Positions 12,400-41,452 of a stretch of 64,000 bases of DNA are shown piece by piece. Origin of the DNA: Apostichopus japonicus (taxonomy: Eukaryota > Echinodermata > Holothuroidea > Aspidochirotida > Stichopodidae); NCBI RefSeq assembly GCF_037975245.1, contig NC_092577.1, positions 4,393,501 through 4,457,500 of the forward strand, written 5' to 3'. The notes beneath the pieces are model-generated. The model was given only the letters and a program-made list of their open reading frames with translations. It did not search any database and was not told the origin of the DNA. Each line of letters begins with the position of its first letter. Within the stretch, counting starts at the first letter, position 1. The translations under genes and the position numbers were made by a program.

Positions 12400-12654
12400 G
12401 AAACAAACTCGTCAAAATGACAAAATTCGGAAAAAGACGTTTTGCCGAGTTTAACAACTCGTCAAAACGACAAAATTATTAAATTTGCCGAGATGCAACA
12501 AGTCGCCAAAATGACAAAATTCTGAAAATTGACGTTTTGCCGAAATACAATAATTCATCAAAATGACAAAAATCTGAAACTTGACGTTTTGCCGAGATAC
12601 AAAAAGTCGTCAAAATGACAAAATTTTGAAAATTGACATTTTGCCGAGATACAA
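12400..12654. repeat. 52-bp satellite array, left part
   Basis: About five units of a 52-bp tandem repeat are marked by GTCGTCAAAATGAC and GACGTTTTGCCGAGATA. Successive GTCGTC-like words lie near 12502, 12554 and 12606. The array continues with the same period at 27703. Element A therefore interrupted one array of about 11 units. CAA at 12652-12654 and 27703-27705 is the apparent target duplication. Confidence 0.9.
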
Positions 12655-14959
12655 CACGGGAAAAAAACACGCGTTTAAATCGCCGTTTTCGGTCTGTAAT
12701 TGCGACGTAAATTCCGAGTTCCAGCCTGTTTCCGTTACGTTTCCACTCCTGAAACTAGTGATTAAGGTAGGCTTACGACCCAACTTAAACGCGTGAGTTT
12801 TCCGCGTTCGCGATGACTTATTTACCGAGTACGCGGTGACCGTAAACGCCAAGTGTCATCCAAATACGGTGAAGCTCGCTTAATCGTGCGGTTTCAGGGA
12901 AGGGTAATCTTTACGTTTCCGGTCACAATTACAACAGATTCGCTACCTTAAACATGACCGTTAATCTGGAGTTTACGTTTGAATCCAGCAGTAAACTTCT
13001 CGCATTGATCATCGTAAACGCCATGATTACACCAATATATACGGAGAAACGTGGTCATCGTAAACACATTACTTACGACCAATACAGGGGCTGGGCTTAT
13101 TCGCCACGTTTAGGGAGTCTTAATCGGGTTGATTAGGCTGAGAAATACACGGACCACCTCTATCAAATATTACATTTGATTTAAAGAAAATTGAAAATAA
13201 TAAACATAAAATCACACTCGCTTGATTTTCCACTTTTTTATTTATATATTTGCACCTCATATCGCATCGTAAACGTTTATTTGTTATTTTTACACTTATA
13301 CAAAAAAAAAGTAAATGAACGAAATACCATTTCTAATGTGTAACATATAAATGCAACTCAATATTGCTTTACATCATAGTGTTGAATATTCAGCTTTTTG
13401 AATACAAAGTTTAAACCTCGAGAAGCCAGTTTCCTTTTCAAATTTCAAAACATGCATTATTGTCCGGAGAATGTTTTTTGATACCCAAATATTACTCTAC
13501 TTACATTGTGGCAATTATATACACATGCAACGATTTTAATGCCAGGTGAAAGAAGGAAAAAACAAGTAAATATGGAATGTTTCTATTTTTAGTTACTAGT
13601 TTGCAAATCAAAACCTCTGAAAACCAGCTTCTCACTTGAAGTAACTTAACATATCAGCAGTTTAAATTGAACCAAACAAATTTATGTTTAAAATTCCGTG
13701 TGTTTATCCTTATATGATATAAACGCCTAGAGGCACTTCTTCCATGATGGTTGTCGGCCCCTCGACCCCCCCCCCTCCACGCAGGCCCGGAAACGGTACC
13801 AGCCTCTTTTATGTGGAACGAACTTGACACAGAACACCACTTCCTGCCTCATTTCGTAGCACGCTTAATATTTTGTTGCTGCTTTAAATTTTATTGTAAT
13901 TAACATATATTTTGATATAAAATGCAATGATAGCCCAAACAAGATCTCTAAATTTTTTACCCTGAAAGTCTGGAATTAACCATGCATGAATAATGAAAGA
14001 CAAACGTACAAGTACAACAACATTTCGACGACAAGTTATTAGGCCTATGCTCTAAAGCTATGTCTTATTTTAAAATATGATTTACTAAATGATTCATTAA
14101 CAATTAATACAATCATGCTTTTTTCTTGGCTTTTGTTTCCTGAAAATATTTTAAGGATAACTTAATCCTTAACAATTAATCCCTTGATGGAATATATTAG
14201 CTGTGAAGGGAAAAAAGGCTTCCATTAAAGCAAAAGACTAACAAGAAAATAATAATTAATTCTGACATCTATTATTATGGGCATATTCTTTCTTCCTTGT
14301 TGCATTTAACTCAGGCAGGATTTCGTTTTAAAGGTATCATGTAATTACACCAAATGTTAAATTAGAGAAAACTCTTCTTTATTATACAAAATCGTCCACT
14401 GCAACTTGTTTGTATCCAAAACAACGGCGTTTGCTGTTTGTTCCTGGTGCCTCATTAATCAACAAATGCTCAGGACAGGATTATCCACGTGCAACTGGGG
14501 CACGAGTTTAAACGTTGGGTAAAAAATTCAAAGAAATATTGTGATAACGTTACATTATTCTACGTTGTATATGGTACAAAAAGTTCAAAGAAGTCAAACG
14601 AAATGGACTTCGATATGCAGTCTTTACACTGTTGATCAATGACTGTTTTTATGTGATGTTTTAATGTCCGTATCATAACCACCGTGGGCAAATAGATGTC
14701 TTTTGTGAGCTATACATCCGGCGTTATCCGGTACCAATGTATCTCTATGGGAGATCCAATAAACTGTTTGCCACGGGCCTCCCACAAGCTTAATCCGGCA
14801 CATCAAACAATGACCATTTTCACCATTTGGAGGGGGGTCATACCTTCATTGTTATTGTTCAGCCTAATTAACAGCCCAAGTTGGGGCGTCAGTCGGTACG
14901 CATTTTAAAGAAACGTCTCCTTTCCTAACAGTGGGTATCCTTTTTTCTGGACTTTTCGC

Positions 14960-15173
14960 TAAGGAGAACGTCCTTATAGAATGAGTCCAGCCTCATTTTG
15001 TTCAGTCTTTCCGACTCCCAAGTGAACTCCTGCACTACGGTACCCTAGCTCGTTCGCTCTCCATGTCAGATTCTTCGGATGACATATACTCAGTTGACAT
15101 CACTGTACAGTCTGTCTTTTCTCTCCTCTGACCAGTCTATGTTCTTCATTGCGCTCAATCTACACTGAAGTTT
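14960..15173 (-). pseudogene. Decayed transposon gene, second exon (element A)
   Basis: On the minus strand an acceptor (TTTGTTTACAG) precedes the exon at 15173. The reading runs KLRCRLSAVKNIDWSEERK, then after a frame change an acidic-serine stretch (DYMSSEESD in copy B; EYMSSEESD here), then after another break FTWESERLNK and a lysine-rich tail. This looks like the N-terminal part of a transposon protein. The breaks (a TGA after GATGTCAAC and a TAG after GTACCG) are shared with the copy in element B, so the gene was already dead when A and B separated. The function is unknown to me. Confidence 0.5.
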
Positions 15174-15917
15174 CTGTAAACAAAGACACAAGAATAAGTA
15201 TGAATTAGACATATATAAAGATCAGTTGGCATATAGTTTACTTTTGTCGAAAAATATACTAGCTCCAACTGTCAATATCTCCAGCCCCCCCCCCCAGTGA
15301 AAAATGTGGAGGCGCGGAAGTATCATTCCGCCCCCCCCCCCCCCGCTTCGCAAGTCAGAAAAACCCCTTTTTCATTTCCAAATGAGAAAAAAAATCTCAT
15401 TTGGAGCACCAAATTGCATCTAAGGCCAGGTGAAAATACAAAATTAAGTTTACAAAATGGGGTGGGTGTTGAAGTGTGCTTTATTGCACCAAATTGCATC
15501 TGAGGCCACCTGGAAATGCAAAAACTCCCCTTAGACCCCTCCCCCGGGCCGGCCATCAGTCTTCAACCCCCCTACTCAAATGTACCTTCCTACGCCACTG
15601 TATATTTCAACGGTTTACAAAGCAGATTTGTTTATGGGTTGGGGGGAGGTAGGGGGTACGTGGTCGGGTGAGGTTCACCATCACAAGGTTAGAACGTGAA
15701 TGTATCAATAACAGTATACCCTGGCAAATTGTGCATGAAACATTTTACAGATATCTGAAAGGAGATTATTATATTATTTCTCTCACTGTCATATTTTAAC
15801 TCTTTTAATTTATCGTTTTTAAAGGAGCGAATGCCTGTACAGGTCTAGGGTTTATATAACGGTGACTTTTAGTGATTGAAAAATTACATTAATAAGTCTT
15901 GGCCTAGTGTTACGTAC

Positions 15918-16256
15918 CGAACAATCCAGTAGCACAGAGAACTTCGTTTTCGTTTTTTTTTTCGAAAGAAGTTGTTCCTTCTCAGCCAGTAGTGCTCGGA
16001 GTGCCTTTAATTCTTCCTTCAAATGTTTGCACCGAGCTTTCTGTCACAACATGTGCATACTGCCGCGGTAGTTCCAATTGTCGCTGCTTCTAAATGTTTT
16101 TTTCTTTTTCCAATACACGTATGACATTTTCCTGCGGAACATCATTAAAAACCAGCGACGGATCGAATTGAAAGTGTACTTTTATAAACTGGCAACCTTG
16201 CTTCCACGGAGCTTTCTGTTACTTCTGCAATAAACCACGAAGCCGGAATCGTCCAT
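15918..16256 (-). pseudogene. Decayed transposon gene, first exon (element A)
   Basis: A start codon at 16256 opens MDDSGFVVYCRSNRKLRGSK. Later frames give a charged helical stretch (LKEELKALRALLAEKEQLL) and the exon ends before a strong donor (GTACGTAAC) just below 15918. Frameshifts and stops separate the pieces. The copy in element B (41106-41452) differs by small indels, and frames that are broken there read better here. A coiled-coil N-terminal region of a transposon protein is inferred. No domain name is justified. Confidence 0.45.
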
Positions 16257-16583
16257 GTTGAATGCTCTTTGCAATGTAGAACTCGATTGAGGATCAAGTG
16301 CGGTGTGAATCAAACCAACGTGTTGCTACTTGTGATACCGCCTTTTACTGATTTCAAATTGCCCGCTTTCTAGTAAGCCCAGGCTGTGACGTAATTAACT
16401 ATACTGAATACGTTATTGTTACTAACCAACTGGATTAGCCAACCAGTGAACTGCAAAGTGACAGACAGTAAACTTTATCATTGTGATGTGACCGGAAATT
16501 TCACTTGCTTATCTGGAAATGGTATTTATAGTAAGTGAGCAGTATACTTTTCTGTTTCGTACATATATTGCGGTGGGTATTTG

Positions 16584-16609
16584 CAGGGAGTTGTTATAAC
16601 AACTCCCTG
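16584..16609. mobile_element. Micro-palindrome insertion P1 (26 bp)
   Basis: A perfect palindrome with arms CAGGGAGTTGTTA and TAACAACTCCCTG, flanked by GTATTTG on both sides (16577-16583, 16610-16616). The corresponding site in element B (40779-40785, reverse strand) has a single GTATTTG and no insert. Confidence 0.85.
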
Positions 16610-17755
16610 GTATTTGTGCGTTTCATCGCTTTAGTTCTTCGAATATCATGCACTTGAGGGCATATTGAGAGAAACCGGCAGAGCAAAAAACGGACTGTTG
16701 AAATCTATCTCGACTAATCTATGAAAAAGAATATGGACAATGGGAATCGTAAGAGGAGCATTTAAAAACGGGGGGAGGGGAGGGGGAGGGGCGGGGCAGG
16801 GGGCATGTGGTAGGAGGTTGGAGGTTGGAAAAAGTTTCGCACAAAATTTAAGCAAAAATTACTTAAATCTCAAATATGGATTTGCGCCGCTATGACCGAC
16901 AAAGTTTAGCCGAGGTTTTTGAAGCCTGACACTGAGTACCGATTGTTCGATATCCCAGTTCCGAGGCTTGTGCCCCCCCCCCACCCACCCACCCTGTCCC
17001 CGTTTTTAAATAAATGCCCTAAATAGCTATTCTGGACCCGACCATTTCTAAAGCCGCAAAAACGGCATCACCAAAGAACCGGCTAATTATATTTGAATTT
17101 CTATCTCAGGACTAAACTCGGAGGGGGTACATATAGTTGGATAGAAGGAGACATCCACAAATATCCAAAATATGACTCATTTGTAATATAAGATGAATTC
17201 TATGACCATTCTGGATCAGTTTAGGGGCAAATGTTGTATCCATGAGATGTCAATGTGTTCCTCGATCACCTAACTTTCCAATTAAAATCAACGGATTACA
17301 TTCTATAACAAATGCATATGTAATTAAACAGGTTCATAATACAATTAAGAACGATTCTTTGCATTAACAGTTAAGTTTACCACACATTGGGGAACCTGAC
17401 GAGGGGTGGGGGAGTGGGTGGGGTGCACCACATGGTTGCATTGGGTCCCCAACATATAGCGTTAAAGGAGGTCTAATTAAAGTACCCTAATTATTGTTTA
17501 TGCTCATTTAAACGTCGCGGGTTCTCGGAAGCTAACTTGGCGAAAACAGCAAAGGGAAAACTCGATTGGATTTCAAGTGACAAAAATTGTGCGATGCTAT
17601 GTACTCAGTGTGAATCCTCCAAGCCATAGTTTTTTTTTTTCTTGTCTTCGAAAAGTCTTCAACGCAAAGCGATTCTTTTCACATATCAGTTGATGGAAAC
17701 TGCAATTATTATATTATCATTATGTTCTACTAGTCCATAAATTTGTTAGTACAAT

Positions 17756-17777
17756 CATGGAGGTAAAAACCTCCATC
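17756..17777. mobile_element. Micro-palindrome insertion P5 (element A copy)
   Basis: A 22-bp palindrome, CATGGAGGT-AAAA-ACCTCCATC, flanked by GTACAAT (17749-17755) and ATACAAT (17778-17784). It is shared with element B (39646-39667), where both flanks are identical. It therefore predates the separation of A and B. Confidence 0.7.
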
Positions 17778-18790
17778 ATACAATGGTACAATGTCCTTTC
17801 TACGCTTCTGTAGCTCCGTAGTTAGCGTCCAACATTGATATTTCCGAATTCTACGGTCCAGCAACAATAGGCAGCTAAATTCAAATCTGTATGGAAGCCG
17901 TGAACTGCCGCTTCTAAAACTTGTTGACGATCTCGTGAACTTATGTTAAAGTCGGAGGAAACTGAATATAGCAGTTTGTCGATCATTTAACCATGCTTTG
18001 ACTCAGTGATCATATAGAAGCTGGAATCTTACAATAAACAATTAAACAATGTGAAGCGTGTCACAGTGACAATAGCATTTGATATTTACATGTTATTCAG
18101 TATATCACGCCTTTTTGACAGTAATCACAAACACATTCTTGCTATATTTTTCAGAGACCCACGAGTTATCATTTTAAAAGGTTTGAAATTCTGACACTCT
18201 TCAAAATGCGGCAGTATTTAATTTTTAATTTTATTCAGTTCCTTATCAACAGCGTAATGATATAGCTACATTCCATTTTTGACATTCAACATATTAAACA
18301 TCACTTGTGCATTTAACGTTACTTGATCGAGACGTAGCTTGCAATAATTTTCAGGAAAATTCGTTTCATATATATAACTATTGGAGAATAAAACCATTAC
18401 CTTGATCCGGCACATGCATATGGATTTCGCTGAGTGTAGGCGCTCTACTTTTGCCTTTGTATGGCACTTATGTACGGTATGTTCTTCAAAATGCGGCAGT
18501 ATTTAATTTTTAATTTTATTCAGTTCCATATCAACAGCGTAATGATATTGCTACATTCCATTTTTGACATTCAACATATTAAATATAAACTATCACTTGT
18601 GTATTTAACGTTACTTGAACCAGATGTAGTTTACAATTATTTTCAGGAAATTCGTTTCATATATAACTATTGGAGAATAAAACCATTACCTTGATCCGGC
18701 ACATGCATATGGATTTCGCTGTGTATACTACGCATTGTAATGTAGGCGCTCTATTTTTGCCTTTATACGGCACTTATGTATGTTTATTTA

Positions 18791-18795
<5 letters not shown>

Positions 18796-18848
<53 letters not shown>
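18796..18848. repeat. TA microsatellite
   Basis: About 26 TA units directly follow the 3' end of the tRNA-derived SINE on the minus strand. The element B copy has an interrupted version (38836-38907). Confidence 0.9.
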
Positions 18849-18852
<4 letters not shown>

Positions 18853-18895
18853 ATCGTAATGAGTTTGTAAATCAAGAACAGTGAAACAAACTTTC

Positions 18896-18972
18896 AGCCT
18901 CCACCAGGATTCGAGCCATGGGCCTCCCGCTCTGTACGCGGACACCCTAACCACTAGGCTATATGGACGCTG
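18896..18972 (-). mobile_element. tRNA-like SINE head (element A)
   Basis: On the minus strand the head reads with an A-box (TAGCCTAGTGGTTAGG), an anticodon-arm-like hairpin and a degenerate B-box (GGCTCGAATCC; GGTTCGAATCC in the B copy). The acceptor arms nearly pair, but the T stem has mismatches, so this is a SINE rather than a working tRNA. A short body and the TA repeat follow. The element B copy is at 38712-38787. Confidence 0.65.
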
Positions 18973-19799
18973 ATTGTATGTCCAGAGGTTCGAAACCGGT
19001 AAGGAAGGTCTATATGTTTGGGACTTGCTATTCTGTTTATTTAAGACTTGCATGTGTCTCAAGCATGAATGTATTACGGTACCCTCACATGATAATACTT
19101 CCGTGTCTCAGGTATGCATTTCTTTAATGGAATTATGTAACGGACACAGGATAATCTTAGCTATTATATATTTGCATATAGGTGCGTGATTTTTACAAAC
19201 ACCACACGTGAATATGCCAATTTTTTGGCATAATGCTTATTTTCTCAAGCGATATAACTTATTTTCGACATTTCCGTAAAAACTAAACAGTAATGAACGT
19301 CGTTTACGTATTATACACAGGGACGTAGCTAAGGCCTAATGATTGAGAGTGGGTAGGGGGGGGGGAGAGATGTAGTTGCTGAAATTCCAACTGGATGGGA
19401 TTTGGAGCCAGAAAATTCCGACTGCTGCCTTGTAACCCGCAGCCCCCCCCCCCCCACACCCTACTCGTCAACGATACAGTCAGTGTCAGTCAGTCAGTCA
19501 GACACTCCATCTTTCGCGACTGCACTTTTGTTTTTTCGGTACATTTGTACCACTGGCCCTCACTTCACAAATTTATTAATCACTCTGGTTAGCGAGAAAG
19601 CAATGAGTATAAGTTATCTGCTTGATAGGCAACATAGACTACCAACTAAAAAAGCTATGTTAATGTAACAAAGGGGAAAACTTTTCTTTTTCAACAAATT
19701 ATATTCGACGACATAGTGAACTACCCCAAAATACAGTGCTTTTTCCTAGCGCGCTTAATATTATTTTCTTGGGGGGGGGGGGGGGCTATTTATCACTCA

Positions 19800-20165
19800 C
19801 ATGAAAAAATTAAATTGTTCACTTCATTCCAACTGAGCATTGGGAATGAAGTGAACAGTTAAACATTTTGCAGAAAAATGTTGAGTTGACGAGATGCGAT
19901 AAGTTGCCAATTAAACATTTCGCAGAAAATTTTACAATTGCTCAATTGGGATGAAGTGAACAATTGAACATTTTGCCAAAAACATGTCCAATTAACGAGA
20001 TAAGATAAGTTGTCAATTGAACATTTTGCAGAAAATTTTTCAATTGCTCAGATGGAATGAAGTGAACAAGTGAACAATTTGCAGCAAAATGTCTAATACA
20101 CGAGATATGATAAGTAGTCAATTAAACACTTTTCAAAAATTGTTCAATTGCTCAGTTTAAGCAAC
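19800..20165. repeat. AT-rich tandem repeat (element A)
   Basis: Degenerate units of about 110-130 bp contain GAAGTGAACAATTGAACATTTTGC and GACGAGATAAGATAAGTTG-type words. The array is mirrored in element B at 37065-37335. Confidence 0.75.
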
Positions 20166-20819
20166 TAAGCAATCCAACAGTTTTCTGCTTTTTTTTTTTG
20201 ATAAGATTTTATCTTGTTATTTTAACAATTTACTGAAAAATTTCACTTTATGGGCAAAGTTTTTCTTATGTTGATGGCCATTTTAAGCTTCCGTAGAATA
20301 GCATTGAGCGTTTTTATTGTATACGTTGTACAGTAGTTTATTAGGCATTTTTTTTAGAGTATTCAAAATCACACGAAGTTTTGTATGGTGGAGTATAAGA
20401 ACCGCGAGATACAATTTCTTAATATGACAAGGAAAACGTGGTAAATATGACTGATTAAAGGTCAAGTTTGACCGAAAATTGTAGGTCACCCACAAATAGC
20501 AAGAATTTATGAAAAATAGAGTGCGACAGTCGAAAAAATTAGAGTGCCACAGTCGGAAATTCCGTACTCATAAGCGTACGTATACAATTTTAATCGAAGG
20601 CTGGTGGGTACAGTTTCTTCCTCGTTATGATCCCTCACTATAATTTTCAGTTGATATATGTCATCAACATATTATGTTAAATTAAAAGTAAGTATAGGTA
20701 TCATCAACCTATATATGAAATTGATCGCAGAGTCAATCAGGCGTAATAGATTTAGGGAGGGGAAAATTGATTGTGGGGTGAGGGGCTTCGAGTTCAAATA
20801 CGTATACTCATCAAAAGTA

Positions 20820-21060
20820 GTCTGTAATGGCCCCAAATTACGGCATGCTGTAATTGCTGGAAGTTTTCAAAAAAGTCCTTTCCTGAAGGTGTTCTCTCTC
20901 CATGTTGTTCGCTGACATTATAAACACACACAACAAGATGACTAAATTTCCCAGTTAGGTAAATTTCCTCCAAGGTGGTTAATAAAACAGTTTAAGAATT
21001 TTAACATAAGGTGACCATATTTTAATATGTAGCATATATGGGACCAATAAATCATACTTA
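20820..21060 (-). repeat. Internal ~250 bp module of element A
   Basis: One of four related blocks in A. It has the landmarks GGTCACC, CTGGACATTCAGTCAT and GAAAACTTCTAGCAATTA in the same order (reverse strand here). The other copies are at 23740-23960 (reverse), 24860-25060 and 26450-26680 (forward). Element B has counterparts at 9300-9545, 32495-32700, 35280-35510 and 36185-36420. No coding potential is seen. Confidence 0.65.
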
Positions 21061-21179
21061 GTATGATAGTAATATTTAGTAGTGTAGGGTCTACTCGTTT
21101 GTATTGGGCTTTAACCTAGTGAAGTTGCATATAACAAGGTTTGAACCTAACTGGAGACCAAAACTTCCCGGTACGTAAC

Positions 21180-23645
21180 ACCTTACCCTAACACCAAAAA
21201 TAAATGAAGAGGCGCGGGAGGGGGGGGGGGGGGGGGTCGGGGGTCGGACAGAGGATTCAAGAAATTATGTAATATATAGGCTTCTTTAATAGTGCAGTTC
21301 CTAAAGGGTCTACTCGTTTGTATTGGATTTTAATGCCTTCTAAATCGCTTAATTTTCAAACATGTTCTGTGAAGACTTCTATATTTCAGTCATACTTTCC
21401 CAAGCGTTGGCACAATTCCCCTAAGCGTGGGCACAATAAAGTTACTGTCACACATGCATGTTAACCAATATGTATATGGGTATATATGTATATGTGTCAG
21501 GGGGGGGGGTCGGGTGTCGGAAAGAGGATTCTAACATAAAGGCTTCTTTAATAGTGCAAAGCGTGGGCACAATAAAGTTACTGTCACACATGCATGTTAA
21601 CCAATATGTATATGTGTATATATGTATATGTGTCGGGGGGGGGGTGGTCGGGTGTCGGAAAGAGGATTCAAGAAAGTATGAAATATATAGGCTTCTTTAA
21701 TAGTGCAGTTCCTAAAGGGTCTACTCGTTTGTATTGGGTTTTAATTCCTTCTAAATTGCTTAATGTTCAAACGGTTTCTGTGAAGACTACTATATTTCAG
21801 TAATACTTTCCCAAGCGTGGGCACAATTCCCCTAAGCGTGGGCACAATAAAGTTACTGTCACACATGCATGTTAACAATATGTATATGTGTATATATATA
21901 TATGTGTCGGGGGGGGGGGGGGTCGGGGGTCGGAAAGAGGATTCAAGAAAGTATGTAAGATATATACTATATGTACTATATTTCAGTCATACTTTCCCAA
22001 GCGTGGGCACAATTCTCCTAAGCGTGGGCACAATAAAGTTACTGTCACAAATGCATGTTAACCAATATGTATATGTGTATATATGTATATGTGTCGGGGG
22101 GGGGGTCGGGTGTCGGAAAGAGGATTCAAGAAAGTATGTAATATATTGGCTTCTTTAATAGTGCAGTTCCTAAAGGGTCTACTCGTTTGTATTGGGTTTT
22201 AATTCCTTCTAAATTGCTTAATTTTCAAACGGTTTTTGTGAAGACTTCTATATTTCAGTCATACTTTCCCAAGCGTGGGCACAATTCCCCTAAGCGTGGG
22301 CACAATAAAGTTACTGTCACACATGCATGTTAACCAATATGTATATGGGTATATATGTATATGTGTCAGGGGGGGGGGGGTCGGGTGTCGGAAAGAGGAT
22401 TCTAACATAAAGGCTTCTTTAATAGTGCAAAGCGTGGGCACAATAAAGTTACTGTCACACATGCATGTTAACCAATATGTATATGTGTATATATGTATAT
22501 GTGTCGGGGGGGGGGGTCGGGTGTCGGAAAGAGGATTCAAGAAAGTATGTAATATATAGGCTTCTTTAATAGTGCAGTTCCTAAAGGGTCTACTCGTTTG
22601 TATTGGGTTTTAATTCCTTCTAAATTGCTTAATTTTCAAACGGTTTCTGTGAAGACTACTATATTTCAGTAATACTTTCCCAAGCGTGGGCACAATTCCC
22701 CTAAGCGTGGGCACAATAAAGTTACTGTCACACATGCATGTTAACAATATGTATATGTGTATATATGTATATGTGTCGGGGGGGGGGGTCGGGGGTCGGA
22801 AAGAGGATTCAAGAAAGTATGTAATATATATACTATATGTACTATATTTCAGTCATACTTTCCCAAGCGTGGGCACAATTCTCCTAAGCGTGGGCACAAT
22901 AAAGTTACTGTCACACATGCATGTTAACCAATATGTATATGTGTATATATGTATATGTGTCGGGGGGGGGGGTCGGGTGTCGGAAAGAGGATTCAAGAAA
23001 GTATATAATATATAGGCTTCTTTAATAGTGCAGTTCCTAAAGGGTCTACTCGTTTGTATTGGGGTTTTAATTCCTTCTAAATTGCTTAATTTTCAAACGG
23101 TTTCTGTGAAGACTACTATATTTCAGTCATACTTTCCCAAGCGTGGGCACAATTCCCCTAAGCGTGGGCACAATAAAGTTACTGTCACACATGCATGTTA
23201 ACAATATGTATATGGGTATATATGTATATGTGTCGGGTGGGGGGGGGGGGGTTCGGGGGTCGGAAAGAGGATTCAAGAAAGTATGTAATATATAGGCTTC
23301 TTTAATAGTGCAGTTCCTAAAGGGTCTACTCGTTTGTATTGGGTTTTAATGCTTTCTAAATCGCTTAATTGTCGAACGGTTTCTGTGAAGACTACTATAT
23401 TTCAGTCATACTTTCCCAAGCGTGGGCACAATTCTCCTAAGCGTGGGCACAATAAAGTTACTGTCACACATGCATGTTAACCAATATGTATATGGGTATA
23501 TATGTATATGTGTCAGGGGGGGTCGGGTGTCGGAAAGAGGATTCTAATATAAAGGCTTCTTTAATAGTGCAAAGCGTGGGCACAATAAAGTTACTGTCAC
23601 ACATGCATGTTAACCAATATGTATATGTGTAGTGTATGCGGCTGC
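21180..23645. repeat. Higher-order minisatellite array
   Basis: The unit contains GCGTGGGCACAATAAAG, ATGCATGTTAACCAATATG, a TATATGTATATGTGTC stretch and a poly-G run followed by TCGGGTGTCGGAAAGAGG. The GCGTGGGCACAATAAAG word starts near 21426, 21560, 21837, 22025, 22296, 22434, 22706, 22893, 23163, 23444 and 23575. The repeating spacing of about 134, 277, 188 and 271 gives a higher-order period near 868 bp. Long frames with repeated peptides here are by-products of the repeat. In element B the equivalent region (about 35600-36050) holds only one to two units. Confidence 0.9.
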
Positions 23646-25295
23646 GTACATTATACATATGTTGTCTATGTATATATGTTAATCGTACATATGTCTGTAT
23701 CTGAGACTGTATCTGTGGACTGTATTGGCCGCAAATTAAGCAACTTGCCATAATTGCTAGGAATGTTCAAAAAAATACTTTCCTTGGAGGTCTTCGCTCT
23801 CCAAATTGTTCTCAAACATTCTTTATGAACACAAAATATGACTGAATGTCTAGTGAGGTAATTTTTCTTCCAAGGAGGTAATATAACCGTTTAAGAATAT
23901 TGACCAGGGGTGAGGTGACCATTTTTGAATATATGGCATATATTGGCCAATACAGCATACTTTAATCCTTCTACATAATCTATACTAGTTGCATATAACA
24001 AGTTTGAACCTAACTGGACACCTAAACTTCTCCCGTAGCAACGTAAACACCTTCGAAAATTAAACGGGTGAGGGGGGGGGGGGGGTCGGAGTGTTTGAAA
24101 GAGAATATAAGAAAGTATATGATGTATAGGCTTTTGTCTCACTTGCATTTTTTTCATGGGGCCTTCTCGTTTGTACATGGTGTAATGCCTTCCAAATTGT
24201 TAAATTTATGAACAGGTTTTATGACAACTAGCCTAATATATTTCAATCATACTCTCCCAAGCGTGGGCACAATTCCCTAAGCGTGGCACAATACGGATCA
24301 TATGTATATATGTGTGTGTATAGTGTACGCGGCTGCGTGCAGTACCCGTTGTAATATGTTCATTTTAATTGTTACGTCTGTATCTAGCCGGTAAGCAATA
24401 GGCCCTACCTACAAGTTGTTTTTCATTCTATATATTAATCTTCGTGGCATTGTTCCACTAATTTTGAGGTGAATGTTTGTAAAACGTTTCCATGTTTGAA
24501 TTCAGAGTTCAATAACATTATCTACAATAGAAAATTTTCAATAGAAATGAACGTGGAACACATTTCTGGCGTCAACATGTGTCATTTATTTACACTTGCT
24601 TTCTATCGCTGCAACAGAAACATTTGCAGCAATGAATAAGAGAGGAAAGGGAGAGCAAAATCGTTATTAAGTTGTCGCATTCCTGCAGTAAAGAGTGCAC
24701 CGTCTTAACTACAAATTTATAAATATATACTTTGTACCTCGTAAAACGTGTTTGGTAAAGTATGTTCTTTACTTTGAATCTTTTACTTGCAATTGTTTAG
24801 ATTTTACACCCCCAATACAAAACCAGTATATCCCTCTCCAAAGGTTTGCTGTTTTGGCCCCTAATATGCCAGGTATTCAAATATGGTCACCTTTGATACA
24901 AAAAAAAAATTGTATTTGTATTACCACCCTTGAGGAAATTAACATTCAGTCATTTTATGTCTTTAATTTAGAAAGTATGAGAACAATTTGGAAAGTAAAG
25001 ACCTCCTGGAAGGTAATTTTTGTTAACTTCTGGCAGTTATATATAGCGTGCTATAATTTGTGGCATATGCAGACTACCTTTCATCCATTTAGCCACCGAC
25101 AAATTGCTCAACGGGCAAGTATTAGCTTTGAAGTTATGTTTTCAGGATCACCGCCCTATAAGTGTGTTATACATGTGCACATAATGGTAGCAGTGTTATA
25201 CATATGAGCTGTAAATGTTACCCTAAAACTGTGGATTTCTAGGCATTAACCCATCATTTCATGCTCACGACCCGACCTATAGCCAGATTGTTTAA

Positions 25296-25316
25296 CAGGT
25301 GAGTTACAACTCCCTG
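25296..25316. mobile_element. Possible micro-palindrome P8 (21 bp)
   Basis: CAGGTGAGTT-A-CAACTCCCTG is palindromic except for one mismatch. GTTTAAC (25290-25296, overlapping by one base) and ATTTAAC (25317-25323) are possible flanking repeats. It lies in a stretch absent from element B. This is a weaker example than the others. Confidence 0.4.
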
Positions 25317-25560
25317 ATTTAACTAGTAATTAGCTAGGAAGCACATTAACGCAGGAGGATCGCCATCCTTTTGGAAATTTTCCAGTTCATATACTCCCTT
25401 AATGGGGTATAAGAGAATGTATAGCAAACGCTGATACGTGTGCGAAAATTATCAAAGGAGAAAACAACCTCCCCGTGTGAAAAGAAAACAAAGAACAATA
25501 AGAAAGCAGACGTTAATTCAGTAAGAGTATACTATTACTTTCAAACGTATATAGTATCTG

Positions 25561-25585
25561 CGGGGAGTTGTTATGCAACTCCCTG
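25561..25585. mobile_element. Micro-palindrome insertion P6 (25 bp)
   Basis: CGGGGAGTTG and CAACTCCCTG arms surround a short loop, flanked by GTATCTG (25554-25560) and GTATTAG (25586-25592). Element B has the uninterrupted site (GCATTAG on the reverse strand, 32080-32086). Confidence 0.7.
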
Positions 25586-25737
25586 GTATTAGTCAGCCAT
25601 ACATTTCGTGTGGTTTTCGCGGTCACATTATTAACCCTACTGTTGTCATGTTAGCAGCTTTGACCGCGTTTGAAAACAAGCGCGTTTTTTCATGCTGGTT
25701 TTGCTGTCGTTTGATTGGAGGATGAACAGCGACTGAT

Positions 25738-25765
25738 CAGGGAGGTCTAAAATATCACCTCCCTG
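25738..25765. mobile_element. Micro-palindrome P7 (28 bp), shared by A and B
   Basis: Arms CAGGGAGGT and ACCTCCCTG surround a 10-bp loop. The B copy is at 31906-31933 with one arm changed to CATG. No 7-bp duplication is evident, so it is either older or a different structure. It is included because the ends match the others. Confidence 0.45.
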
Positions 25766-26272
25766 ATCAACAGATGAGGGTTGTTCATTGCGGTTTCACA
25801 AATTCTCTACAATAAACCAATTGGATGCACTGTTCTGTTTGATACAGTATAAGGCAGGCCGTATCGTGTATTTTCATTGTTGTATCTGCATATGCATCAA
25901 GAAGCAGATAAACCAAACACGTACCATACTAATCGGACATAAATAATAATAATAATAAATAGTAAAAAACGTCAGGCCAACTTACTTTAACACATAAATA
26001 ATTATACATAAAAAAGTTAGACAGACAGATGAGGAGACCCGTGTATGTGTCTCTTCATCTGTTTTCTCATGATTCCAGCGCTAGTGATTAGAATATCGAT
26101 CAGCCATGCCATAGCGCCAAACTTAATTCTTTGTGAGGGCGAGCTGTTTGTTGAGGTATTATGATCGAGGGCCCGCAACGTGAATTACGTAACTTACCAA
26201 AATGAGCAACCACGAGGAAATTTGCTGATACTCTCATAGAATTAGCTTGAGGAGTTTTGTTGGTTTGACGGC

Positions 26273-30445: not shown

Positions 30446-32713
30446 CATTCTTTTTAAAATTAATAAGACCAATGTACCACCCCTTCGATTATTTTCTTCT
30501 ATCGTAAGATTATTCCACCTAACCCCCCCCCCCTTCCTCTCCCCATGTGACAGTGAACATTCACGGTGTACCCTATGGCTACTACACACAAGAGTGACGA
30601 ATACAAGTCTGTGGCAGGACGAAACTTCAAAATTTAGTTCTAGCACAGTGACGAATGTGTGGCGAATGTCTAAAATTAACTGAAAATGACATGACATAAC
30701 GACGAAAATGTTTACACTAAAATTACTACCATGATGCATGTAAGAAATTTCAGCAACAAACATGAGAACTCAAAGTTCTATTTGTTATATTTAAAATATT
30801 GACAACTTTCGGTAAAAAAGATTCTCTTTTAGTTACGCTATACTAAAGTCAAAATATGAAAATCTTTAGAGCGCGTTTTCTCAAAACTCACATTTTGAAC
30901 ATTCGTCACTACGCCAGAACGGGGACGATATACCCGATCACTTGTTATCGATGAAGTGGTGTGTTGCCGGATTTTGTCAAGGTCTTGGTACTACGAGCGA
31001 AGGCCATTGATTAAGTTTCGTAACTTATCGGGAAGCGATTAGAGGGATGGGGCGTAGGGTTGTAGGCGCGCGTTTTCATGCAGATGGGAACAATCTCAAG
31101 AAGTGATGGGTGCGTCATGTTCCCCGACGACTCGGTCGAGTCCGAGACCAGCCGCAGTTGGTTTCATAGCACAATTGTACAATTGTTTAAGGCGTCCATA
31201 CACACACACGCGTTATGATAGACCATAGATGGTATATATACATATATATATATATATATATCTACATTAGTGAGAGATGAAAATGGAAACGTCAAAAATG
31301 GAGTTGTCGGTGTAAGGGGTAGGGTGAGACGCACCCCCCCCCCCCGTAATCCTCGATTCGTCACTGGCTACCATGTGTATATAATAGTGATCAGCGCTTT
31401 AATTATGAATGTTCCTCTTCTCTTCCCGGTGTCTTGGCGTTTATCTTCTACTCCCTCCTTTTCTCCTTTTTCTCTTTTTTTTTTTTTTTTCTTTTACCTT
31501 CCTTCCTCTCCTTCCTCCTCTTTTTTCCCCCTCTTTTTCCCTTTTTTCTTCTCTTTTTTTTTCTCTCCTCTTTTTCTTACCCGGGGGGCGCGCGCCCCCA
31601 ACGCCCCCCCTGGATACGCGCCTGCACATACACGGGTCTCTTCATCTGCCTGTCTAACTTTTTTATGTATACTTATTTATGTGTTAAAGTAAGTTGGCCT
31701 GACGTTTTTTATTATTTATTATTATTATTTATGTCCGATTAGTATGGTACGTGTTTGGTTTATCTGCTTCTTGATGCATATGCAGATACAACAATGAAAA
31801 TACACGATACGGCCTGCCTTATACTGTATCAAACAGAACAATGCATCCAATTGATTTATTGTAGAGAATTTGTGAAACCGCAATGAACAACCCTCATCTG
31901 TTGATCAGGGAGGTGATATTTTAGACCTCCATGATCAGTCGCTGTTCATCCCCCAATCAAACGACAGCAAAACCAGCATGAAAAAAACGCGCTTGTTTTC
32001 AAACGCGGTCAAAGCTGCTAACATGACAACAGGATGGTTAATAATGTGACCGCGAATAGCGTACGAAATGTATGACTGACTAATGCTATATACGTTTGAA
32101 AGTAATAGTAACTCTTACTGAATTAGCGTCTGCTTTCTTATTGTTCTTTGTTTTCTCCTTTGATAATTTTCGCACACGTATCAGTGTTTGCTATACATTC
32201 TCTTATACCCCATTATGGGAGTATATGAACTGGAAAATTTCCAAAAGGATGGAGATCCTCCTGCATGTGCATGTGCTTGCGGGTCGTGAGCATGAAATGA
32301 TGGGTTAATGCCTAGAAAGCCACAGTTTTAGGGTAACATTAACAGCTCATATGTATAACACTGCTACCATTATGTGCACATGTAACACACTTATAGGGCG
32401 GTGATCCTGAAAACATAACTTCAAAGCTAATACTTGCCCGTTGAGCAATTTGTCTGTGGCTAAATGGATGAAAGGTAGTCTGCATATGCCACAAATTATA
32501 GCACGCTATATATAACTGCCAGAAGTTTACAAACAAACTACCTTTCCGGAGGTCTTTACTCTTTTTTCTCATAATTTCTAAATTAACCACATAAAATGAC
32601 TGAATGTTAATTTCCTCAAGGGTGGTAATACAAATACAATATTTGTTTTTATATCAAAGGTGACCATATTTGAATACCTGGCATATTAGGGGCCAAAACA
32701 GCAAACCTTTGGA

Positions 32714-34415
32714 CAGTGGCGTCGCCAAGGGGGGCCAGGGGGCACATGCCCCCCCCCCCTGGAAAACCCAGTGCCCCCCGAGTGCCCCCCCCCCATCTGA
32801 GATTTGGGTTGGTAAAAAAATATATATATATTTTGTTATATTCAACTCCCATCATCTGAGTTGGTTTTTCATAAGGACAAAGAAGCACAGTAATTCGTAT
32901 TTTCTTCAAATGAGCTGCGAAAAAATGAAAAAGTTTATCCTTGAACGTCGGGTATCGAAGTCGTGACCTGCGCCATCACAACAGGTGTCGATATTTACAT
33001 TGAATGTGTCAGTGCTCACGCCATACCAGCGGATATACACGTCCGCTTCGCGAGCTACATGACTATGAGAAGGGAGGGTACTGCAATATGTTGCCTTGGT
33101 CTGAGGTTGACAGGTTAGGAGCTGACGAAATGTGAGAATGTGAGGGTCCGCAGGCACCATACTTGCCTATATTTGTGGACCCATATATTAACCCTGTTGT
33201 GTAGGGGGTGCAGAGGTCATTTGAGGTTAGATGCTTGTAGGAACAAATGGCGAATGTTCACACCTGCATACTGAGCCATACTCGATGTGTGATCAAACTT
33301 TGGATTGCATGGTGAGATCCCTGATAGGAGCCAATGACGATGCTGGAACCTGTTACATCTTAATAGATTATGGGCGAAAACGAGAAGGACAAGAAAGGAG
33401 TCGGGGGTCATGCACACACTAATTCAACAAATGTAGGTTCTATTGATATAGGGTTAGGCATAATATCGACAGCATGTGGTTCATATCCTCTGCAAAATTC
33501 TGCCCCTTGTTAAAATCGTTACCTCAAAAATAGCAATTTCTGGAGATATCTTCAGATCGAATTTAGCATCAAATGTGGCAGCATTTTGCATCTAGCCCAT
33601 CCTCCGTATGCGAAAAATTTCCAAAGGGGAGGGGGCAGTGCCCCAATGAAAAAGTTGAGGGGGCAAATGCATGATAAGCCCCCCCCCCCCCCCCCCATAT
33701 TTACCAAGGCTCCGAAACGTGCATCTGCCCATTTTTCAATGCATACTTGTCGATCTGTCCGATGCACACGTATACTATATAGGTGTAATAATTTTAGTAA
33801 ATGCTGGGGGGACCCTCGACCCGTCCCCTGGCTATAGACCACATTGTCACCCCAACCGCGTCTTCACGCCCCTTGAAAAGTGGAAGCAGTGAGTGTGAGT
33901 ACCGGTAAGCGCAACACAACTTCGTCTTAGGCCAATGACTTGCTTCATTTCAGCCAGTTCTCCAACATCCCCTTACTACACTAAAAAACGTCTTTGCGAG
34001 TACACTACGAGTAATAGCTACTCTCTTAAAACACCATCGAATATACAAATTACAATGTTTTTACAGACTTTTACGTGCAATCTGAGAAATTGCAGGCTTG
34101 AGACCCATATTTAAGGGCTAGGTATTCGCAGCATAAAACACTCGGGAAGTGCCGTTTCCGGCCATCTGGGGGTTTGAAAAACCCAAAAATTTCTTGTACG
34201 CTCCGCGCCGACCGATGGTGGCGCTCCGCTTACATAGTCTCTACACATTTGCCCCCCCAATAATTTTCCCGTTCTGCCGCGCCTGGAGGGGCACCCCCTC
34301 CCCTTAGACCCATCCCCCAGGACGGCGATCCGTATCCACCTAAGTGCCCCCCATCAAATGCTGGTGCCCCCCTGTGCCCCCCCCCCCCAGACTGAAAAGT
34401 CTGGTGACGCCACAG
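32714..34415. mobile_element. 1.7 kb hAT-like non-autonomous element
   Basis: The ends are CAGTGGCGTCGCCA and, read inward from the right, CTGTGGCGTCACCA. They are flanked by an exact 8-bp duplication CCTTTGGA (32706-32713, 34416-34423). Element A has the single site on the reverse strand at 24837-24844. An 8-bp duplication with CAGTGG ends is typical of hAT elements. No transposase frame is seen. The interior contains poly-C runs and, at about 34018-34276, a module also present inside the SLC5A remnant (46788-47058). Confidence 0.88.
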
Positions 34416-37064
34416 CCTTTGGAGCGGGATATACTGGTTTTGTATTGGGGTGTAAAATCTAAACAATTGCAAGTAAAAGATTCAAAGTAAAGAACATACT
34501 TTACCAAACACGTTTTACGAGGTACAAAGTATATATTTATAAATTTGTAGTTAAGACGGTGCACTCTTTACTGCAGGAATGCGACAACTTAATAACGATT
34601 TGGCTCTCCCTTTCCTCTCTTATTCATTGCTGCAAATGTTTCTGTTGCAGCGATAGAAAGCAAGTGTAAAATAAATGACACATGTTGACGCCAGTTTTCC
34701 AAGTTCATTTCTATTGTAAATTTTCTATTGTAAATAATGTTATTGAACTCTGAATTCAAACATGGAAACGTTTTACAAACATTCACCTCAAAATTAGTGG
34801 AACAATGCCACGAAGATTAATATATAGAATGAAAAACAACTTGTAGGTAGGGCCTATTGCTTACCGGCTAAAATTAACAAAAACATAATAACATTAAAAT
34901 TAAAATAAACATATACAACGTATACTGCACGCAGCCGCGTACACTATACACACACATATATACATATTATCCGTATTGTGCCCACGCTTGGGAAAGTATG
35001 ATTGAAATATATTAGGCTAGTTGTCATAAAAAACTGTTCTAAAATTTAACAATTTGGAAGGCATTACACCATGTACAAACGAGAAGGCCCTATGAGAAAA
35101 ATGCAAGTGAGACAAAAGCCTATACATCATATACTTCCTTATATTCTCTTTCAAACACTCCGACCCCCCCCCCCCCCCCTCACCCGTTTAACTTTCGAAG
35201 GTAATTACATTGCTACGGGAGAAGTTTGGGTGTCCAGTTAGGTTCAAACTTGATATATGCAACTAATATAGGTATAGAAGGATTAAAGTATGCTGTATTG
35301 GCCCATATATGCCATATATTCAAAAATGGTCACCCCTGGTCAATATTCTTAAACGGTTTATATTACCTCGTTGGAAAAAAAAATACCTCACTGGACATTC
35401 AGTCATCTTTTGTGTTCATTAAGATTGTCTGAGAACAATTTGGAGAGCGAAGACCTCCAAGGGAGTATTTTTTTGAACACTCCTAGCAATTATTGCTTGC
35501 TTAATTTGCGGCCAATACAGTCCACAGATACAGTCACAGATACAGACATATGTACGATTAACATATAAACATAGACAACATATGTATACTGTACGCAGCC
35601 GCATACACTACACATATACATATTGGTTGACATGCATGAGTGACAGTAACTTTATCATTGTTCCCACGCTTTGCACTATTAAAGAAGCCTTTATATTACA
35701 TACTTTCTTGAATCCTCTTTCCTACCCCCGACCCCCCCCCCCCGACACATATACATATATACACATATACATATTGGTTAACATGCATGTGTGACAGCAA
35801 CTTTATGGTGCCCACGCTTAGGAGAATTGTGCCCACGCTTGGGAAAGTATGACTGAAATATAGTAGTCTTCACAGAAACTGTTCGAAAATTAAGCGATTT
35901 AGAAGGCATTTAAACCCAATACAAACGAGTAGACCCTTTAGGAACTGCACTATTTAAGAAGCCTATATATTACATACTTTCTTGAATCCTCTTTCCGACC
36001 CCCGCCCCCCCCCCCCCCCGCGCCTCTTCATTTATTTTTCGAAGGTGTTGCATACGGGGAAGTTTTGGTCTCCAGTTAGGTTCAAACCTTGTTATATGCA
36101 ACTACACGTTAAAACACGATACAAACGAGTAGACCCTTTAGGTACAATTCTACACTAGGATATATTACTATCATACTAAGTATGATTTATTGGTCCCATA
36201 TATGCTACATATTAAAATATGGTCTCCTTATGTTAATATTCTTAAACTGTTTTATTACCACCTTGGAGGAAATTTACCTAACTGGGAAATTCAGTCATCT
36301 TGTTGTGTGTGTTTATAATGTCAGCGAACAATATGTTGAGTGAACACCTTCAGAAAAGGACTTTTTTGAAAACTTCCAGCAATTACAGCATGCCGTAATT
36401 TGGGGCCATTACATACTATTTTTGAGGAGTACACGTATTTGAACTCGAAGCCCCTCACCCCACAATCAATTTCCCCCTCCCTAAATCTATTACACCTGAT
36501 TGACTCTGCGATCAATTTCATATATAGTTTGATGATACCTATACTTATTTTTAATTTAACATAATATGTTGATTACATATATCAACTGAAAATTATGGGG
36601 GATCATAACGAGGAAGAAACTGTACCCATCAGCTTTAGATTAAAATTGTATATGTACGCTTATGAGTACGGAATTTCCGACTGTCGCACTCTAATTTTTC
36701 CGACAGTCGCACTCTAATTTTCATAGATTCTTGTTATTTGTGAGTGGCCTACAATTTTCGGTCAAACTTGACCTTTAATCAGTCATATTTACCACGTTTT
36801 CCTTGTCATATTAAGAAATTGTATCTCGCGATTCTTATACTCCACCACACAAAACTTCGTATGATTTTGAATACTCTAAAAAAAAAATCCCTAATAAAAC
36901 TACTGTACAACGTATACAATTAAAACGCTCAATGCTATTCTACGGAAGCTTAAAAGTGCCATCAACATAAGAAAAACTTTGCCCATAAGGTGAAATTTTT
37001 CAGTAAATTGTTAAAATAACAAGATAAAATCTTATCCCCCCCCCAAAAAAAAAAACAGAAAAAT

Positions 37065-37335
37065 ATTGGATCGCTTAGTTGCTTAAACTGAGCAATTGAA
37101 CAATTTTTGAAAAATGTTTAATTGACAACTTATCATATCTCGTGTATTGGACATTTTGCTGCAAATTGTTCAATTGTTCACTTCATTCCATCTGAGCAAT
37201 TGAACAATTTTCTGCAAAATGTTTAATTGGCAACTTATCGTATCTCGTCAACTCAACATTTTTCTGCAAAATGTTTAACTGTTCACTTCATTCCAAATGC
37301 TCACTTGGAATGAAGTGAACAATTTAATGTTTTTT
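37065..37335. repeat. AT-rich tandem repeat (element B)
   Basis: The inverted counterpart of 19800-20165, with words such as GAACAATTTTCTGCAAAATG and CACTTCATTCCA. Confidence 0.75.
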
Positions 37336-37886
37336 TCATGTGAGTGATAAATAGCCCCCCCCCCCCAAGAAAATAATATTAAGCGCGCTAGGAAAAAGCA
37401 CTGTATTTTGGGGTAGTTCACTATGTCGTCGAATATAATTTGTTGAAAAAGAAAAGTTTTCCCCTTTGTTACATTAACATAGCTTTTTTAGCTGGTAGTC
37501 TATGTAGCCTATAAAGCAGATAACTTATACTCATTGCTTACTCGCTAACCAGAGTGATTAATAAATTTGTGAAGTGAGGGCCAGTGGTACAAATGTACCG
37601 AAAAAAGTTCGGAACAAAAGTGCAGTCGCGAAAGATGGGGTGTCTGACTGACACTGACCGTATCGTTGACGAGTAGGGTGTGGGGGGGGGGGGGCGGGTT
37701 ACAAGGCAGCAGTCGGAATTTTCTGGCTCCAAAACCCATCCAGTTGGAATTTCAGCCACTACAACTCCCTCCCCCCACCCCCCTCTCAATCATCAGGCCT
37801 TAGCTACGTCCCTGTGTACGTAAACGACGTTCATTACTGTTAAGTTTTTACGGGACTTTATAGTACTAATTAATACTACGTGCGAC

Positions 37887-37912
37887 CGTGGAGCTCTGTT
37901 TATAGCTCCATG
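37887..37912. mobile_element. Micro-palindrome insertion P2 (26 bp)
   Basis: Arms CGTGGAGCT and AGCTCCATG, flanked by GTGCGAC (37880-37886, 37913-37919). The same middle sequence (GAGCTCTGTTTATAGCTC) is close to the insertion in the SLC5A remnant (50697-50721). Confidence 0.85.
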
Positions 37913-37919
37913 GTGCGAC

Positions 37920-37947
37920 CAGGGAGTTGTTCCATAACAACTCCCTG
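37920..37947. mobile_element. Micro-palindrome insertion P3 (28 bp)
   Basis: Arms CAGGGAGTTGTT and AACAACTCCCTG, flanked by GTGCGAC (37913-37919, 37948-37954). It sits immediately next to P2 and shares one target repeat with it, so the same 7-bp site was used twice. Confidence 0.85.
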
Positions 37948-38040
37948 GTGCGACGAAGAATTGTACCCACGCTTATATAGAAATTCTACCTAAGCTTGGC
38001 AAAGTATGACAAGTAAATCGCAAATCCAACACATATATAC

Positions 38041-38155
38041 CGGTGCTATGGCAGAGTGGCGGATAAAGGCGGTGGCGTTTGGAAGCAATGCGGGTTTCTC
38101 CCACATTTGTGGTCGCTTAAGCGTCGTGAAAATAACTGCTGATTATTATTACTAT
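38041..38155 (+). mobile_element. tRNA-derived SINE with ATT-rich tail
   Basis: A leucine/serine-tRNA-like head (GGCAGAGTGGCGGATAAAGG) is followed by a body (GGTCGCTTAAGCGTCG) and the tail CTGCTGATTATTATT. The same body and tail occur at 2963-3045 and 54340-54420. Confidence 0.65.
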
Positions 38156-38711
38156 TATAACATTTAAAAAATGTAGTAGTTTGAAAGATTATTGAACATT
38201 CAAGGTTTATATATATAGGTTTACTTGAGTATTCACAAATTCCAATCTCCAGTCCACAATCACGAGTATTCTTCCAATGCTCGCCCCACTCCTTCTTTTT
38301 TACGTCCTCTTCACTCATTATCGATTCATGGACAGAACTTGATAGTAATTTCTGATAAAATCTTCCTCAGTTGCATCCTATATGTAAACTGAATGTTCCG
38401 TTGTTTGCACATATGTCGAAAATGATTTATATCGCTTGAGAAAATAAGCATTATGCAAAAAATTGGCATATTCACGTGTGGTGTTTGTAGAAATCACGCA
38501 CCTATATGCAAATATATCATAGCTAAGATTGTCCTGTGTCCGTTATATAATTCCATTAAAGAAATGCATACCTGAGACACGGAAGTATTATCCTGTGAGG
38601 GTACCGTAATACATTCATGCTTGAAACACATGCAAGTCTTAAATAAACAGAATAGCAAGTCCCAATCATATAGACCTTCCTTACCGGTTTCGAACCTCTG
38701 GACATACAATC

Positions 38712-38787
38712 AGCGTCCATAGCCTATAGTGGTTAGGGTGTCCGCGTACAGAGCGGGAGGCCCGTGGTTCGAATCCCGGTGGAGGCT
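38712..38787 (+). mobile_element. tRNA-like SINE head (element B)
   Basis: The counterpart of 18896-18972, with a better preserved B-box (GGTTCGAATCC). It is followed by a short body and an interrupted TA repeat to 38907. Confidence 0.65.
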
Positions 38788-38829
38788 GAAAGTTTTTTCA
38801 CTGTTCTTGATTTTCCAACTCATTACGAT

Positions 38830-38869
<40 letters not shown>

Positions 38870-38875
38870 GATGTT

Positions 38876-38911
<36 letters not shown>

Positions 38912-39645
38912 AATAAACATACATAAGTGCCGTAATAAAGGCGAAAATAGAGCGCCCACATTACAATACGTGGTACACACAGCGAAATCCATGTGCATGT
39001 TCCGGATCAAGGTAATGGTTTTATTCTCCAATAGTTATATATATGAAACGAATTTTCTGAAAATTATTGCAAACTACATCTAGATCAAGTAACGTTAAAT
39101 ACACAAGTGATGTTTAATATGTTGAATGTCAAAAATGGAATGTAGCTATATCATTACGCTGTTGACATGGAACTGAATCAAATTAAAAATTAAATACTGC
39201 CGCATTTTGAAGAGTGTCAGACTTTCAAACCTTTTAAAATGATAACTCGTATTAAATTTGTAGTTGATGTGGGTCTCTGAAAAATATAGCAAAAATGTGT
39301 TAGTGATTACTGTCAAAAAGGCGTGATATACTGAATAACATGTAAATATCAAATGCTATTGTCACTGTGACACACTTCACATTGTTTAATTGTTTATTGT
39401 AAGATTCCAGCTACTATATGATCACTGAGTCAAAGCATGGTTAAATGATCGACAAACTGCTATATTCAGTTTCCTCCGACTTTAACATAAGTTCACGAGA
39501 TCGTCAACAAGTTTTAGCAGCGGCAGTTCACGGCTTCCATACATATTTGAATTTAACTGCCTATTGTTGCTGGACCGTAGAATTCGGAAATATCAATGTT
39601 GGATGCTAACTACGGAGCTACAGAAGCGTAGAAAGGACATTGTAC

Positions 39646-39667
39646 CGTGGAGGTTTTTACCTCCATG
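39646..39667. mobile_element. Micro-palindrome insertion P5 (element B copy)
   Basis: CGTGGAGGT-TTTT-ACCTCCATG with identical ATTGTAC flanks (39639-39645, 39668-39674). It is the same event as 17756-17777 in A, with flanks better preserved. Confidence 0.8.
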
Positions 39668-41105: not shown

Positions 41106-41452
41106 ATGGACGATTCCGGCTTCCGTGGCTTATTGCAGAAGTAACAGAAAGCTCCGTGGAAGCAAGGTTGCCAGTTTATACAAGTACACTTTCAATTCGA
41201 TCCGTCGCTAGTTTTTAATGATGTTCCGCAGGAAAATGTCATACGTGTATTGGAAAAAGACTTGAAAAAAAAAAACATTAGAAGCAGCGACAGTTGGAAC
41301 TACCGCGGCAGTATGCACATGTTGTGACAGAAAGCTCGGTGCAAACATTTGAAGGAAGAATTAAAGGCACTCCGAGCACTACATGATCTGAGAAGGAACA
41401 ACTTCTTTCGAAAAAAACGAAAACGAAGTTCTCTGTGCCACTGGATTGTTCG
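41106..41452 (+). pseudogene. Decayed transposon gene, first exon (element B)
   Basis: The counterpart of 15918-16256. It starts MDDSGF and then shifts frame because of a small indel. It carries the lysine-rich helical stretch (KEELKALRAL) and ends at a donor GTACGTAA (41453). The damage is greater than in A. Confidence 0.45.

Follow-up and report, generated by a model that had tools for sequence, protein, structure and literature searches.

The window, i.e. the whole 64,000-nucleotide stretch of Apostichopus japonicus DNA analysed here, contains eight near-palindromes, 22-28 bp long and with ends resembling CA(G/T)GGAG, termed scars below in line with the interpretation we favour. It also contains a large inverted duplication (12654-26049 and 31625-46290), most blocks of which are 88-95% identical, so that one arm could be used as a control for the other. 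Further inverted pairs lie at 8154-9845/26045-27702, and a 100% identical palindrome was found at 60243-60568/60605-60930. Between 21195 and 23657 there is a tandem repeat whose units are spaced about 411 or about 457 bp apart; several of them match a single stretch in the other arm (35609-36035). A 24-bp insertion with an 8-9-bp duplication at 25468-25491 is missing in the other arm and is not of the scar type. The open reading frame at 46600-46986 gave no Pfam match; it may resemble an exon of a sodium-coupled solute carrier. The pattern CAGGGAGN{4,24}CTCCCTG matched three times in the window and never in 100 shuffles. A loose motif match at 57985-58001 was rejected as part of an unrelated repeat.

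The palindrome at 16584-16609 (scars are given without strand) is perfect, 26 bp long and of terminal-repeat type 1 (CAGGGAGTTGTTAT...). It is flanked by GTATTTG on its left (16577-16583) and right (16610-16616), and the opposite arm is empty, the matching pre-insertion site on the minus strand (40775-40792) holding a single GTATTTG. Likewise, the 25-bp type-1 scar at 25561-25585, which together with its diverged duplications GTATCTG and GTATTAG (two mismatches) covers 25554-25592, has an empty counterpart with a single GCATTAG at 32080-32086 on the minus strand. A scar-free counterpart was thus seen for two of the eight palindromes (16584, 25561), each time with one target copy, as the sequence-only reading had stated. 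Three of the eight were present in both arms (25738, 31906, 39646). The old scar-like palindrome at 25738-25765 has no 7-bp duplication, and its opposite-arm copy at 31906-31933 carries one altered end base and again no 7-bp repeat. The GGTAAA-type scar at 39646-39667, with ATTGTAC duplications (39639-39674), has its other-arm counterpart at 17756-17776, adjoining an 8-bp extra piece. For the other three (37887, 37920, 50697) no opposite-arm counterpart was found by alignment. Two of them form a tandem pair at 37880-37954, with 37887-37912 being of the CGTGGAG/CTCCATG type and 37920-37947 of type 1; the third, of the CATGGAGCTCTG type, lies at 50697-50721 between GTTCTAT and GTTCCAT (50690-50728). 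The 7-bp flanks claimed in the sequence-only reading hold, as they are exact at 16584, 37887, 37920 and 39646 and differ by one mismatch at 50697.

Flanks were analysed in 25 distinct palindromes: the eight of the window, 14 from loci L001-L015 and three from 200 kb of sampled sequence (L016-L035), L007, L009 and L011 having added no further distinct rows. The 7-bp flanks were identical in 12/25, had at most one mismatch in 15/25 and at most two in 18/25. Randomly re-paired flanks gave 0.16, 0.64 and 2.6, respectively, so that the proposed excess of flanking repeats over a control was indeed found. At 6, 8 or 9 bp, exact flank matches were seen in none of the 25. Seven of the 25 flank pairs had at least three differing positions, which counts against the scar reading. 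In the 12 exact duplications (GTGCGAC counted twice), G occupied position 1 in 8, T position 2 in all 12, A position 6 in 9 and C position 7 in 6; positions 3 and 5 were not conserved in this small sample. With the same restriction to 12 sequences, the duplication resembles the GTANTAC preference of Galileo. When 264 kb were searched for palindromes with CA/TG ends and flanking repeats, four cases were obtained at 7 bp and none at 5, 6, 8 or 9 bp (shuffles 0 to 0.5). With the CA/TG condition dropped, the counts, which are without shuffle control, were 29, 40, 12, 32 and 1 at 5 to 9 bp, and the 6- and 8-bp cases shown were mostly AT-rich simple repeats. Target duplications of 7 or 8 bp are a feature of P-superfamily footprints, as are single-target pre-insertion sites, and both were found here, the latter for two of the eight window palindromes.

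The conserved-end near-palindromes noted in the window proved to be real and abundant throughout the 671.6-Mb host genome. CAGGGAG-N8-18-CTCCCTG occurs in 2,506 places vs 41 in the reversed control, and CATGGAG-N6-36-CTCCATG in 1,751 places vs 55. Because some scars lie inside host repeats, these numbers are counts of places and not of independent events; for instance, flanks are common to L014, L040 and L041, and L006 and L007 are near-copies. With a 16-nt arm fixed, CAGGGAGTTGTTATGG-N1-31-CTCCCTG gave 1,322 matches on both strands and none in the control.

The commonest scar sequences can be built from a pair of 18-nt tails, CAGGGAGTTGTTATGGAA. Among the 50 CAGGGAG scars listed, eight consist of 18+9 nt and seven of 18+12 nt, all with an AA overlap; the remaining ones show an overlap of one, none, or 1-9 unexplained bases, with point changes among these. 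Type 1 accounts for 43 of the 50, and two tails fully explain 29 of these 43, in agreement with the earlier suggestion that each palindrome is an end-to-end join of two terminal repeats. The other 14 of the 43 contain fillers or later mutations and count against the scar reading. A 2-bp overlap was found in 15/29 two-tail scars vs 12.5% for uniformly random end points (P ~4e-7); five of the 29 (TTATGCAAC type) are possibly one mutated lineage in a host repeat, and without these P is ~1e-8. The junctions are varied, with 29 orientation-merged forms among the 50 listed scars. Microhomology or filler at the join, a feature of P-superfamily footprints, was thus present.

The lengths are restricted as well. 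In 98 of the 99 fixed-arm places listed, all from C1-C2, the palindrome measured 25-34 bp with 24-54 bp allowed, and the exception (50 bp) encloses another listed scar of 28 bp; lengths of 25 and 28 bp made up 62 of the 99. For the CATGGAG type, 49 of 50 places listed, all from C1, were at most 36 bp long and one was 38 bp, with up to 50 bp allowed. For the CAGGGAG type, the two ranges counted gave ~228 places per length at 22-32 bp vs ~6 at 39-69 bp. Palindromes of 39-69 bp were found in 185 places vs 12 in the control, which counts against the scar reading; they are partly tandem scars and satellites, and others may be scars that contain long fillers. Altogether, the scars show a sharp ceiling near 2 x 18, vs 17-nt tails in Drosophila. 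A tail of 18 nt is preferred to 17 nt because the two 34-bp forms with letters shown read as 16+18 nt without overlap, each with about one changed base. The length of 18 nt is a predicted one, derived from the scars.

We consider it likely that the palindromes are excision scars of a P-superfamily-like transposon (P/Galileo/THAP9), and they are probably not mobile units themselves. The cut geometry, the tail polarity, the repair pathway and a P-type enzyme as the maker are inferred. For each palindrome, one transposon would have inserted, with a 7-bp duplication of its target, and left the site again at a later time. The transposase, most probably of the P superfamily (P/Galileo/THAP9), would cut exactly at the 3' ends of the element and ~18 nt inside its 5' ends, so that each chromosome end would keep an 18-nt 3' tail of the terminal repeat. 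As both tails would have the same sequence, simple annealing would be impossible. The ends would instead be joined after trimming, mostly by microhomology between the terminal AA of one tail and an internal TT of the other, and a few filler bases would be added at some joins. What is expected to remain is two repeat remnants side by side, with a copy of the duplication on either side. The sequence-only reading had also offered hairpins inserted during break repair, which came close.

At least some of the scars are inherited. Both arms carry the 25738 palindrome, its flanks having diverged, and one scar site is common to the host-repeat copies L014, L040 and L041; these scars, at least, were therefore made in the germline and passed on. 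A somatic programmed excision was rejected on the same two observations.

The tandem pair of the window (37887, 37920), whose members belong to different families and have three GTGCGAC copies in common, points to reuse of one target. Genome-wide, CTCCCTG-N1-31-CAGGGAG showed no overall excess (118 places vs 159 in the reversed control), which counts against the scar reading. The spacer, however, was exactly 7 bp in 10/33 places listed on C1-C6 (P ~6e-8 for equally likely spacers) and in 14/17 places listed on C7, L022 among these. Thus, the 7-bp register shows up again in a count that makes no use of flanks. At L022:4347-4885 on C7 there is a 36-bp minisatellite of ~15 diverged units, with a unit that may be viewed as 29 bp of palindrome-like sequence and a spacer of 7 bp. 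An apparent 275-bp element at L022 was rejected as part of this 36-bp tandem array. At C6:18231751-18232489 eight 39-bp CAGGGAG...CTCCCTG units, known as places only, form an array spaced by ~100 bp.

A search for longer elements with the same ends had been proposed, and no intact element with scar ends was found at the sites examined. On C1 below 11.18 Mb there are 32 type-1 18-mer matches, and 150 bp were examined at all nine of them outside the exact-scar list. The 32 ends comprised 23 exact scars, five decayed scars (L039, L040, L041, L044, L045) and four loci with one recognisable arm only (L037, L038, L042, L043). When 40 of 99 candidates were scored, self-matches were the only ones for L037 and L043, L038 was repeated sequence from 25 bases in with other copies lacking the scar end, and a repeated body carrying a scar end was found at none of the four one-armed loci. 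L042 lies inside a host repeat common to L044, for which reason a 38-bp reading of it with a CTACAAA duplication was rejected. Elements with scar ends thus amounted to 0/32 sampled ends, with an upper 95% limit of ~9%; they appear to be rare or absent.

P-type transposase genes are present in the host genome. Sixteen PF21789 matches were obtained; one of them has an open frame of 764 aa, which matched P transposase 6p5a (3e-26) and contained four P/THAP9 Pfam domains. Scar ends in a suitable place were not found in the 5 kb of the P-type locus L036, nor were scar ends found in the part of the P-type locus L046 that was examined. L046:1-1490 (C22) holds the downstream part of a P-type transposase gene, with subterminal repeats near 880-988. 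Among 23 candidates scored, 18 other places have up to the last 500 bp in common, and each of them stops at base 1490. We assume that this shared repeat, which ends ...AGGCCTGTTG, is the 3' end of the P-type element; it mostly begins at base 992 and may instead be a repeat in its own right. Scars of the corresponding form, CAACAGGCCT-N1-31-AGGCCTGTTG, numbered zero. When the sequence analysed was searched for elements of 46 bp to 6 kb with a 7-bp duplication, CA ends and near-identical terminal repeats, only L026:1163-1735 was obtained, with other ends than the scars. This 573-bp element has 14-bp identical terminal repeats, CAAGGGCGGCGGAA, and the 7-bp duplication TGAGGTA. It has 2,720 candidate copies (40 scored) and only three scar-like palindromes. 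With zero scars for the L046 end and three for L026, it is clear that not every such family leaves scars behind, and a 7-bp duplication or a nearby P-type transposase alone does not predict them. Scars without bodies could arise in two ways: either the element excised efficiently, with end joining of the breaks, and was lost afterwards, or the source element had few copies.

Several other explanations have to be weighed against P-type excision. The scars might have been left by a transposase of another or an undescribed superfamily with an internal cut of ~18 nt and 7-bp duplications, a reading for which it speaks that no element body ties the scar ends to a P-type gene, that the single repeat tested beside such a gene has no scars and that the stagger would be 18 nt, not 17. 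We hold it to be rather unlikely, given that a long 5' stagger is described as an unusual, distinguishing trait of P elements in the pertinent parts of PMC7776569 and PMC10983969, that the GTANTAC-like 7-bp duplications fit Galileo and that P-type genes are present in the genome. It is quite improbable that the palindromes are extreme internal deletions, in which excision was followed by aborted gap repair from the sister copy, with nothing but the terminal repeats being resynthesised before joining. Products of repair synthesis plus end joining do appear in the relevant section of PMC2895639, and the joins use microhomology. Such deletions should, however, cover a broad size range, against the drop described above from ~228 to ~6 places per length, and the longer arm does not go beyond 18 nt, the 19th base in the four one-armed loci being inconsistent (C, A, A, C).

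The sequence-only reading took the palindromes for an undescribed class of mobile unit, and 25-36-bp minimal MITEs moved in trans could indeed explain thousands of places with 7-bp duplications and the predominance of 25 and 28 bp (62 of the 99 places listed). This we regard as very improbable. The junction varies (29 forms among the 50 listed), the dominant forms being explained by pairing of terminal AA with internal TT; the arms stop at ~18 nt; four loci have one recognisable arm; tandem scars of different families share one target (37887/37920); and 25-36 bp is too short for known transposase binding regions. An origin by hAT-type excision, also suggested at the outset, is hardly credible, the closest precedent found being P-element excision. 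The ends of hAT elements may likewise begin with CAGGG, with T/A near the duplication edges, which speaks for them. Their duplications are typically 8 bp, against exact flanks in 0/25 at 8 bp and 12/25 at 7 bp here, and in hAT excision it is the flanks that form hairpins, no long stretch of terminal repeat being left behind. The part of PMC1978519 dealing with Ds is consistent with flank hairpins and no long remnant.

P-superfamily-like excision, our preferred explanation, allows a wider reading that we put forward tentatively, as a possibility somewhat short of an even chance. A scar-only P-like lineage with an 18-nt stagger and 7-bp duplications might have undergone thousands of germline excisions repaired by end joining, not from a template. 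The element itself would be gone or nearly gone and would survive as inherited scars, with some 7-mers re-targeted and some scars turned into minisatellites. The excision reaction itself is already known. New are thousands of scars, some of them inherited, that apparently outlast their element, together with the inferred 18-nt stagger, the reuse of one target and a minisatellite unit readable as scar plus duplication. Our searches of the open-access literature revealed no earlier account of inherited P-type scars numbering thousands in one genome. Repeat annotation seeks element bodies, and scars of 25-36 bp would probably be missed. If they can be read, thousands of scars record past P-like activity and reveal the former presence of a transposon after its disappearance. 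They also constitute a natural library of germline end-joining events, whose junction spectrum can be compared between species. The question raised is why one family has scars without bodies and others in the same genome have bodies without scars.

Among known systems, MITEs are likewise short, repeated and flanked by target duplications; unlike MITEs, the scars have a variable junction and, on the scar reading, are not mobile. To our knowledge, they are also shorter than any MITE. In the sections of PMC10983969 on zebrafish Pdre2/THAP9, a P-type transposase outside Drosophila acts on element ends that start with CA, as here, whereas the duplication is 8 bp and the terminal repeats are 13 bp long. 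Galileo, a member of the P superfamily, makes 7-bp duplications with the consensus GTANTAC according to the parts of PMC2775673 and PMC4168063 concerned, and both the length and the GTNNNAC-form preference are shared by the scars. Galileo is known from element copies with long repeats, whereas scars only are seen here, and the likeness concerns the duplications; the word "footprint" is absent from PMC2775673. For the Drosophila P transposase, the pertinent text of PMC7776569 gives cuts at the 3' ends and 17 bp inside the 5' ends, which produce 17-nt 3' extensions. Table 1 of PMC2895639 lists P-excision junctions from Rad51-deficient flies that consist of the 8-bp duplication, pieces of the 17-nt tails with overlaps or fillers, and the duplication again. 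As far as that part of the source goes, the P{wa} junctions and the scars are alike in having a palindromic tail join between duplications, microhomology or filler, and one tail that is often near full length. They are unlike in the duplication (8 bp vs 7 bp) and the tails (17 nt vs an inferred 18 nt), and the P{wa} junctions of PMC2895639 come from a fly experiment, whereas the scars, of which at least some are inherited, are spread over thousands of sites of a natural genome.
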